Made by a program: the position numbers and the translations under genes. Under the pieces are notes generated by a model, which saw only the letters and a list, made by a program, of their open reading frames with translations, was not told the origin of the DNA and ran no database searches. This document shows positions 58,139 to 60,677 of a stretch of DNA of 64,000 nt, one piece after another (position 1 is the stretch's first letter; each line of letters starts with the position of its first letter). Origin of the DNA: Psychrobacter sp. AH5 (GTDB lineage Bacteria > Pseudomonadota > Gammaproteobacteria > Pseudomonadales > Moraxellaceae); assembly GCF_040371085.1 (NCBI RefSeq), contig NZ_JAMBMT010000001.1:1736001-1800000 (forward strand). The letters are read 5' to 3'.

Positions 58139-58564
58139 TTAGTCTTCGGCTTTATCTAAATCGATAGAGACAGAATTGATGCAGTAGCGCATGCCTGTGG
58201 TCTCACGTGGACCATCTGGGAAAACATGACCTAAGTGAGCGTCACAATTGCTACAAGTCACTTCGGTGCGGCGCATGCCTAAAGAGTTATCGACATGCTC
58301 ATCGATAGCGGCGTTGTCGATGCCTTGATCGAAGCTTGGCCAGCCACAACCAGCATCAAACTTATTTTCTGAGTCAAACAGCTTGGCGCCGCAAGCTTTA
58401 CAGCGGTAGATACCCTTATCGTTGACATCGTTGTAGACACCTGTAAAAGGACGCTCAGTGCCTTTTTCGCGTATCACATGATACTCATCATCACTAAGAC
58501 GCTGCTTCCAATCAGCTTCGGTTAATTGAGCGACTTCTTCTTTGGTTAGTTGACTGTCTTGCAT
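58139..58564 (-). CDS. msrB: Peptide-methionine (R)-S-oxide reductase
   Basis: A 141-residue enzyme that reduces the R form of methionine sulfoxide. Zinc cysteines are in CKACGAKLF and CSNCDAHLGHVF, the catalytic cysteine in MRYCINSVSI. The GCGWPSFDQ and GPRETTGMRY blocks are standard. AAGGA precedes the ATG. Single gene; a broken peroxidase gene follows it downstream. Confidence 0.96.
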   Translation of the reverse strand: MQDSQLTKEEVAQLTEADWKQRLSDDEYHVIREKGTERPFTGVYNDVNDKGIYRCKACGAKLFDSENKFDAGCGWPSFDQGIDNAAIDEHVDNSLGMRRTEVTCSNCDAHLGHVFPDGPRETTGMRYCINSVSIDLDKAED

Positions 58565-58789: not shown

Positions 58790-58862
58790 ATGCAAGTTAT
58801 TCTTGCATCATTACTATTTTAATAGCTTGCATTTGGCTTATTTATGCAATAAAATCTTGCAT
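58790..58862. promoter_or_regulatory. Cluster of CTTGCAT half-sites upstream of the XRE-AlaA gene
   Basis: Two dyads with the same geometry: ATGCAAG-N5-CTTGCAT at 58790-58808 and ATGCAAT-N5-CTTGCAT at 58844-58862, their starts 54 bases apart, plus a single CTTGCAT at 58826-58832. They lie ~100-170 bases before the gene start, on the same face if B-DNA turns at ~10.8 bases. Likely operators, with the XRE domain of the downstream protein as the natural candidate ligand. Confidence 0.6.
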
Positions 58863-58958
58863 TAGCTATTGATTCATCAAATTACTGTCAAATAATAAGT
58901 CATAAAGATTTGTCTTAGTTAATGATTATTTGCAACTTTTTAGGAGATGAAAAGCACT

Positions 58959-60677
58959 ATGACCGATAATCCTGATGATTATGCCCAAACCCAGCGCTTA
59001 GAGCAGGCACAAAGACTTGTGCAGCTGCGCCGTGACAAAGGTCTTACTGCTGAGCAATTAGCCCAGCAAATGACTAAAGCTGGCGCGAAAGTGAGCCGCG
59101 GCGCTATCTCTAATTGGGAGCGTGGTATCAATGGTATTGTCTCCTCCAAGCTGCCTACGCTTGCACGCCTCCTAGGCTGTACAGAAGGCTATCTACTACG
59201 AGGCAATAATGATGGCTATGCCGAAGATAAGATAGCTAGTAGTGAGCCCGCTCATCAAGTAACTACAAAGCCTATGCTAGACGCTCAAACTAAACAAAGA
59301 ACTGAACTAAAAACCACGCAACAGCTAGATACCCACTTTGATCATAAAATCAAAAACAAGGATAATACAACAGCACCGGAAGCTAAAACGCTGCAAACAA
59401 AGGAAAGCAACGCTATGAATAACCTAAAAAAATCTGATAAATTACAAAACGTTTGTTACGACATCCGTGGCCCGCTCCTAAAAACAGCCAATAAAATGGA
59501 AGCAGAAGGCCAACGTATTCTTAAGCTCAATGTCGGTAACCCAGCCCCTTTTGGCTTAGAAGCGCCACATGAGATTTTGCGTGATGTGGCGATGAACCTA
59601 CCAGAAGCGACGGGATATTCAGATTCGCAGGGTATCTTTTCGGCGCGTAAAGCGGTGTTGCAGTATTATCAATCTAAAGGCCTGCTATCAGCGGTCGATG
59701 TACGAGATGTTTATTTGGGTAATGGCGTCTCAGAGCTGATTGTGATGACGATGCAGGCGCTGATGAATGATGGAGATGAGGTGCTCATTCCAATGCCTGA
59801 CTATCCATTATGGACGGCAGCGGCTAATTTGTCTGGCGGTACAGCGGTACATTATCGCTGTAATGAAGAGGATAACTGGCAACCTGATATCGAAGATATT
59901 AAATCAAAAATCACTAGTAAGACCAAAGGCATAGTAGTTATTAATCCTAATAATCCTACTGGAGCGCTCTACTCTACTGAGAATCTAAAACAAATTATTG
60001 AAGTCGCCAAAGAGCATAATCTTGTCATTATGGCCGATGAGATTTATGATCGGGTGCTTTATGATGACGTCGTCCATCATCCTATGAGCACCTTAACTGA
60101 CGAAGTGCTGGTACTGTCTTATAATGGCCTATCTAAGTCGCATCGTATCGCAGGTTTTCGCGCAGGCTGGCTGATGGTATCAGGCAAAAAAAGCCATGCT
60201 ACTGACTTCATCGAGGGTTTAGATATGCTCGCCTCCATGCGTCTTTGCTCTAACGTACAAGGTCAGTATGCTATCCAAACGGCGATGGGCGGTTATCAAA
60301 GTATGAAAGATCTGACCTCAGAAAAAGGCCGATTATTTAAACAGCGCGAAATGGCTATCACTCGTCTCAATGCCATCCCGGGTATCTCTTGCACTATGCC
60401 GCAAGGAGCGTTTTATTGCTTCCCAAAAATGGATCCTGAGGTCTATCCTGTCAAAGACGATATGCAGTTTATGATGGATTTATTGATAGATGAGAAGGTA
60501 TTGATGGTACAAGGGACGGGCTTTAACTGGGATGCTCCCGATCATTTTCGTTTAGTATTCTTACCCAATCTTCATGATTTGGAGAATGCTATGGATCGCC
60601 TTGATCGCTTCTTTGCCAAAAAGCGTCAGCAGTACGGTACAGAAAAAGTCGCTAATAAAGAAGTATTAGAAGCCTAA
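58959..60677 (+). CDS. XRE-type HTH fused to an AlaA-like alanine aminotransferase
   Basis: About 572 residues. The N-terminal ~85 hold a Cro/CI-type helix-turn-helix (LRRDKGLTAEQLAQQM, then RGAISNWERG and LARLLGCTEGYLL). A ~70-residue disordered linker rich in T, K and D follows. From M157 of the open frame a full AlaA-like fold type I aminotransferase runs to the end: VCYDIRGPLLKTANKM, NPAPFGLEAP, NPNNPTGALYS, ADEIYDRVLYDD, and the PLP lysine in SYNGLSKSHRIAGFRAGW. E. coli AlaA has no HTH. Start: ATG 58959 with AGGAG 12 bases upstream, or ATG 58947, on top of it. An internal start at 59415 is possible (see finding). Ends at a terminator. Confidence 0.88.
   Translation: MTDNPDDYAQTQRLEQAQRLVQLRRDKGLTAEQLAQQMTKAGAKVSRGAISNWERGINGIVSSKLPTLARLLGCTEGYLLRGNNDGYAEDKIASSEPAHQVTTKPMLDAQTKQRTELKTTQQLDTHFDHKIKNKDNTTAPEAKTLQTKESNAMNNLKKSDKLQNVCYDIRGPLLKTANKMEAEGQRILKLNVGNPAPFGLEAPHEILRDVAMNLPEATGYSDSQGIFSARKAVLQYYQSKGLLSAVDVRDVYLGNGVSELIVMTMQALMNDGDEVLIPMPDYPLWTAAANLSGGTAVHYRCNEEDNWQPDIEDIKSKITSKTKGIVVINPNNPTGALYSTENLKQIIEVAKEHNLVIMADEIYDRVLYDDVVHHPMSTLTDEVLVLSYNGLSKSHRIAGFRAGWLMVSGKKSHATDFIEGLDMLASMRLCSNVQGQYAIQTAMGGYQSMKDLTSEKGRLFKQREMAITRLNAIPGISCTMPQGAFYCFPKMDPEVYPVKDDMQFMMDLLIDEKVLMVQGTGFNWDAPDHFRLVFLPNLHDLENAMDRLDRFFAKKRQQYGTEKVANKEVLEA

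Follow-up and report, generated by a model that had tools for sequence, protein, structure and literature searches.

Can a housekeeping aminotransferase control the transcription of its own gene? This question is raised by a gene of the window (the whole stretch of 64 kb of Psychrobacter DNA analysed here), in which a DNA-binding head precedes an alanine aminotransferase, AlaA. In PutA, an enzyme carries a fused DNA-binding domain and represses the pathway to which it belongs. To our knowledge, enzyme-repressor fusions are few and have usually been treated as single curiosities. In searches of one open-access library, we recognised no paper describing AlaA fused to a DNA-binding domain or an exchange of such heads. 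Databases name the architecture 'aminotransferase class I/II-fold pyridoxal phosphate-dependent enzyme', the closest named proteins are from Psychrobacter, and named records of relatives include Psychrobacter, Moraxella and Acinetobacter. For this protein, named merely as an aminotransferase, we suggest a functional reading: quite probably, the gene product is an alanine transaminase acting as repressor at the promoter of its own gene.

The fusion is encoded by an uninterrupted ORF on the plus strand (58947-60677, 576 aa). ATG 58959 is a likelier start than ATG 58947, since an AGGAG directly abuts the latter and the former lines up with the start of the relatives; the protein then has 572 aa (Table 1). 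Pfam HTH_3 passes its cut-off on the XRE head (25.3 vs. 23 bits, residues 26-83 of the fusion), and HTH_19 and HTH_31 score just under theirs. The head weakly resembles the P22 C2 repressor (PDB search, E 0.024) and has no paralogue elsewhere in the genome at E 0.001. The linker ranges from 38 to 104 aa in length. Aminotran_1_2 (Pfam) matches residues 192-552 with 202.8 bits, and the top solved-structure match is E. coli AlaA (4cvq, E 1.3e-170), homologous over the full length and sharing the catalytic lysine; unlike the fusion, the 4cvq chain has no DNA-binding head. Tyr68 and Tyr210 of E. coli AlaA (named in PMC4094517) also align with residues of the fusion, and the NPNNPTG and ADEIYD motifs of AlaA are kept. 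The best NCBIfam match, NF006230 (alanine aminotransferase), is below its cut-off (352 vs. 534). An earlier note on this DNA had read an XRE domain, a linker and a complete AlaA in one frame, with a catalytic lysine region and motifs that look active; the open ORF, the Pfam matches and the alignment to E. coli AlaA bear this out. The AlaA part looks like a working enzyme, not a decayed sensor copy. Since the second-best AlaA-like protein of the 3.24-Mb genome is merely 26% identical, the fusion is probably the genome's only AlaA.

Table 1. Features of the fusion gene and its upstream region (positions in the window).
Feature	Position	Strand	Basis
Dyad 1, ATGCAAG-N5-CTTGCAT, presumed upstream operator	58790..58808	.	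Exact match; kept in relatives
-35 box TTGCAT, within the third CTTGCAT (58826-58832)	58827..58832	+	17 nt ahead of -10
Dyad 2, ATGCAAT-N5-CTTGCAT, presumed operator over the -10 box	58844..58862	.	Exact match; kept in relatives
-10 box TAAAAT	58850..58855	+	TAATAT in 93% of 96 aligned relatives (picked for TAA[AT]AT inside dyad 2)
Shine-Dalgarno AGGAG of the fusion protein	58942..58946	+	Sequence
HTH-AlaA fusion gene, 572 aa	58959..60677	+	Longest ORF start annotated at 58947; sequence, Pfam, relatives
XRE (Cro/CI-type) helix-turn-helix domain	59010..59210	+	Pfam HTH_3, HTH_19, HTH_31
S/T/N-rich, low-complexity, poorly conserved linker	59211..59414	+	30% mean identity across the genus
Shine-Dalgarno-like AAGGA ahead of the internal start	59400..59404	+	Sequence; pairing energies
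Complete AlaA	59415..60677	+	Alignment to 4cvq; ATG 59415 at the ancestral AlaA start
YDIRGP, active-site plug of the AlaA N-terminal arm	59457..59474	+	Alignment to 4cvq; plug in PMC4094517
Catalytic lysine codon (Lys240 of E. coli AlaA)	60135..60137	+	Alignment to 4cvq; Lys240 named in PMC4094517

Regulators of the MocR group consist of a GntR-type head followed by an aminotransferase-like sensory domain (PMC5320631). The fusion shares with MocR/GabR a fold-type-I aminotransferase domain C-terminal to a DNA-binding domain, but differs in its XRE head and in an orthologous AlaA that has the catalytic residues. Membership of the MocR group was rejected, as the head shows no GntR match at E 0.001 (its Pfam matches are HTH_19, HTH_3 and HTH_31); the fusion is thus distinct from this group, as had been proposed.

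Upstream of the gene, an exact pattern search recovered what had been noticed there before, i.e. two dyads of identical geometry with starts 54 nt apart plus a further CTTGCAT. The dyads are the sole zero-mismatch matches in the window. When three mismatches are allowed, the pattern has 15 matches in the window vs. 20.9 expected, so only the exact dyads are meaningful. The relaxed form TGCAA-N7-TTGCA is found at eight places of the 3.24-Mb genome, two of them at alaA. Among its extra copies one is intergenic (L209, site at 1501), upstream of a gene which by eye resembles cas1, and five are inside genes.

The promoter appears to lie inside this array. TTG stands at the -35 position, 17 nt before the -10 hexamer, in 99-100% of 96 relatives aligned on dyad 2, the loci being picked for TAA[AT]AT inside this dyad and spacer ties being resolved to 17. 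The position of dyad 2 over the -10 box also accounts for a spacer that is almost invariant in dyad 2 and variable in dyad 1. With dyad 2 over the -10 box and the -35 box in the third CTTGCAT, the array occupies a place at which a repressor would block the promoter. The promoter inside the array goes beyond the first reading of the locus, as do the retained internal start codon and the joint exchange of head and motif described below. Two further candidates were rejected. CTTGCAT alone is common in the window (20 vs. 16 expected) and its third copy is the -35 box, which speaks against a separate operator half-site, although this copy may do both. Helical phasing of the two dyads was non-significant on distinct spacings, and their distance in relatives ranges between 44 and 92 nt, which leaves cooperative looping without support.

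Conservation of the dyads in relatives that have the fusion was a test set beforehand, with the XRE motif derived from the window alone. Of 299 genomes in the family search, 294 had a match. Within the genus 104 loci were fetched, 103 of which have at least 150 nt upstream and are testable. Duplicate loci (L206-L208, L222-L245, L117-L119) were left out of the conservation counts, and L183 and L201 were counted as XRE loci from reading of their sequences. A perfect TGCAA-N7-TTGCA is present in 102/103 testable genus loci, the exception being L012, where a contig end cuts the upstream region at 161 nt; at least two sites with no more than one mismatch are present in 99/103. Outside the genus, 16 of the 28 XRE-fusion loci have a perfect dyad. 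Overall, 118/131 XRE-fusion loci have it vs. 0/74 loci with another head or none, the loci being related, so that these co-occurrences are not independent events. The 13 XRE loci without a perfect dyad within 300 nt comprise five with one mismatch, the contig-cut L012 and seven with weaker or no sites, all seven outside the genus. The dyads are therefore conserved with the fusion, as had been predicted.

Regarding specificity, the strict pattern TGCAAG-N5-CTTGCA was found at 62 places in 53 of 60 Psychrobacter genomes, and a backward control pattern in one of the 60. By eye, 51 of these places were matched to alaA, ten lie elsewhere (one apiece in ten different genomes) and one is on an unplaceable contig. 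Six of the seven genomes without a strict site keep dyad 1 with one mismatch, and one has too little upstream sequence. With 51/62 strict dyads at alaA, the XRE head appears to be directed mainly at this one locus.

Mean identity in the genus is 87% for the HTH, 30% for the linker and 90% for the start of AlaA, and codon differences in the HTH are 13150 synonymous vs. 3854 non-synonymous (400 sampled pairs). Judged from these comparisons, the HTH is under purifying selection and translated, and no leftover; the figures contradict the idea, considered in the earlier note, of an HTH that is absent in relatives and untranslated.

The N-termini of the fetched AlaA loci reveal four head types besides XRE: StbA-like, P22-Cro-like, FGTLF and YFVNKK. 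The StbA-like head is found in Acinetobacter and a sister genus and matches the StbA structure 7pc1 (E 8.8e-5); with NCBIfam StbA_2 it reaches 22 bits, far below the cut-off of 100. The P22-Cro-like head is present in 5/5 genomes of another family of the order. For this type, 52 protein clusters (P0126-P0177) cover the whole query stretch, and of two sequences compared with Pfam P22_Cro, one scores over the cut-off. FGTLF is HTH-like by eye, and YFVNKK (L233, L234, L243) is a conserved N-terminal domain of 80-90 residues with only five database relatives, all on AlaA; both had no named match in PDB and family searches. The remaining AlaAs, from further genera of the family and from the class, are bare.

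On an AlaA tree with midpoint root and partly unresolved backbone, FGTLF, Cro and YFVNKK are each found on one branch, XRE requires four changes (at least two forced) and StbA five (at least three forced). This distribution fits gains followed by losses, and in Acinetobacter the joint loss of head and repeats appears to have happened repeatedly. Beside bare AlaA genes no remnants of lost heads were found, only weak matches at chance level. Long upstream open frames in some GC-rich genomes (e.g. L110-L113, L246) were left out of the fusion counts, since by eye no domain could be recognised in them. One locus of the Moraxella-containing genus (L230, in genome G063, which also holds L203) branches within the XRE fusions of the tree. 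Its head has been lost, and no TGCAA-N7-TTGCA lies upstream.

Which motifs accompany these heads was determined by enumerating, for each head class, the upstream repeats of five letters, both inverted and direct, with five shuffled controls per class that kept only the base composition. XRE loci gave the inverted repeat TGCAA-N7-TTGCA (113/128; shuffled maxima 4-7). StbA loci gave AGCAA direct repeats with an 11-bp period (10/12), FGTLF loci ATAGG-N6-CCTAT (5/5) and P22-Cro loci GTCAA-N6-TTGAC (3/5). YFVNKK loci have no clear motif, a weak GTTAA direct repeat (3/4) alone being found, and the best repeat of bare AlaA loci reached at most 5/47. In all classes other than XRE the shuffled maxima were two or less. 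When heads are tabulated against motifs, the cross table is nearly diagonal: RAGCAA-N5-RAGCAA occurs in 9/12 StbA loci and at least three RAGCAA in 12/12, both in none elsewhere; the FGTLF dyad occurs in 5/5 and in none elsewhere; the Cro motif occurs in 3/5 Cro loci and in 1/131 XRE loci. For StbA, FGTLF and P22-Cro, the loci that yielded the motif also served for its first count, and the motifs of StbA and FGTLF alone were rechecked on later loci. This recheck comprised 27 loci whose sequences were read once the motifs had been settled (3 of 30 genomes had no usable alaA start). At least three RAGCAA were present in 18/20 StbA loci, the remaining two having two, and in 0/5 bare Acinetobacter loci; the FGTLF dyad was present in 2/2. 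Named Acinetobacter records gave at least three RAGCAA in 8/10 StbA-headed loci, two in the other two, and 0, 1 and 0 in three bare ones.

For the StbA-type pairing there is an experimental precedent. The binding sites of StbA of plasmid R388 are 9-bp direct repeats, TTGCATCAT, at a spacing of two (PMC3098194), and the protein represses its own promoter 50-fold (PMC3937220). The Acinetobacter head matches its structure, and StbA-headed alaA has RAGCAA direct repeats, often 11 bp apart. R388 StbA, in contrast, is a plasmid maintenance protein with no enzyme, and the Acinetobacter head scores below the StbA_2 cut-off. One housekeeping enzyme with at least four different DNA-binding heads, and a matched promoter motif for most of them, offers a natural series in which to study what turns an enzyme into the repressor of its own gene, how heads evolve along with their operators and whether the state of alanine supply can reach the promoter of a transaminase directly through the enzyme.

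Promoter anatomy and the co-occurrence of dyad and XRE head support the view, already taken in the earlier note, that the enzyme controls its own transcription; such autoregulation appears well supported. From these features we infer DNA binding, repression and use of the dimer by the fusion. A fusion dimer would place two HTH heads on one TGCAA-N7-TTGCA dyad. Bound at dyad 2, which covers the -10 box, the fusion would deny RNA polymerase access, and binding at dyad 1 would make this repression stronger. The head hangs on the N-terminal arm of AlaA; in E. coli AlaA, this arm contributes to the dimer interface and closes the active site as a plug (PMC4094517). Substrate-dependent order of this arm could set the position of the dimer's two heads, and occupancy by substrate or PLP could change the grip on DNA, so that alanine supply would set the enzyme level. 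For sensing of substrate or PLP by the head through the arm we regard the chances as evenly balanced; a rigid coupling of arm and head is disfavoured by the long and variable linker.

Most likely, judged by its anatomy, the fusion works like PutA and BirA. BirA is a ligase and a repressor (PMC6391492). Like these 'trigger enzymes', the fusion joins a DNA-binding head to an intact enzyme within a single polypeptide and has conserved sites at its own promoter. It differs from them in the enzyme and the DNA-binding fold and in a head type that changes with the promoter motif, and its control by a ligand is only putative.

The old AlaA start has survived together with a Shine-Dalgarno-like site, and ATG 59415 is a candidate second translation start. 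Though the surrounding linker can vary freely, the ancestral AlaA Met is kept in 129/130 XRE loci (exception L191). The anti-Shine-Dalgarno energy at the internal ATG averages -3.57 (n 131), far from the -0.10 of randomly chosen positions in the linker (n 1320); the 78 distinct 14-mers upstream of this ATG average -3.66. Starts of bare AlaA are no stronger (mean -2.86, n 41); 'primary start' energies are the best of several candidate starts. StbA-type loci have no internal signal (-0.47 vs. -0.59 at random places) and the FGTLF type a slight one (-2.26 vs. -1.89). In the P22-Cro type a Met lies within 30 residues of the core in 9/43 scored clusters, nine further ones being unscored as their core motif differs; since the internal Met is mostly lost there, the fused form must carry the activity. 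For the gene of the window it is rather likely that ATG 59415 yields a second product, AlaA alone.

These data bear on other explanations of the locus. The main rival is plain negative feedback, in which the fusion would repress by its own concentration and substrates would be irrelevant. We hold this possible, if somewhat doubtful: the long, poorly conserved linker argues against tight mechanical coupling and unrelated head types serve on the same enzyme, but it leaves unexplained why AlaA repeatedly received heads, a metabolic enzyme being a ready sensor. Rather unlikely is a division of labour in which the head of the long form represses, its enzyme part is mainly a dimerisation handle and the short form from ATG 59415 catalyses. 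The retained internal Met of XRE loci and its pairing energies speak for such a division; both forms contain the catalytic residues, however, the energy signal is absent in the StbA type and slight in the FGTLF type, and P22-Cro-type proteins would need an active fused form.

That the fusion regulates a wider gene set, with alaA as one target among several, is improbable. Ten strict dyads away from alaA in 60 genomes and the intergenic relaxed dyad near the cas1-looking gene could be taken in its favour, but no two of these ten strict sites share a genome, and the five other extra relaxed sites sit inside genes. A separate protein could bind TGCAA-N7-TTGCA as well, with a non-functional or untranslated HTH in the fusion and with dyads and promoter belonging to this other regulator. 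We consider this highly improbable in view of the purifying selection on the HTH, the lack of the dyad in all 74 loci without XRE head, including the Moraxella-like locus that lost its head, and the different motifs that accompany different heads.

Self-repression by the fusion remains the preferred reading, and it may extend beyond the genus. Tentatively, and with slightly less than even confidence, we propose that AlaA has served time and again as a chassis for self-repression in this order. No fewer than four unrelated heads (XRE, StbA-like, P22-Cro-like and an unnamed HTH-like one), possibly a fifth, would each have their own operator at the same promoter; head and operator would change as a unit, two products would arise from two starts and the active-site plug would relay alanine status to the head.

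Further observations concern alaA and its surroundings in relatives. The gene neighbourhood before alaA differs between the P22-Cro-type family (L217-L221) and the window, where the neighbour is msrB-like (58139-58564, minus strand); the gene in L217-L221 presumably ends, by eye, like an iron-sulphur endonuclease C-terminus. In a one-contig genome of the genus Acinetobacter, alaA is in pieces and in more than one frame (L360, G209:C1:1736824-1738035). AlaA relatives about 58-65% identical to the query are present in Humibacillus, Streptomyces and Kitasatospora (L277, L312, L316, L327, L329), which may point to gene transfer.
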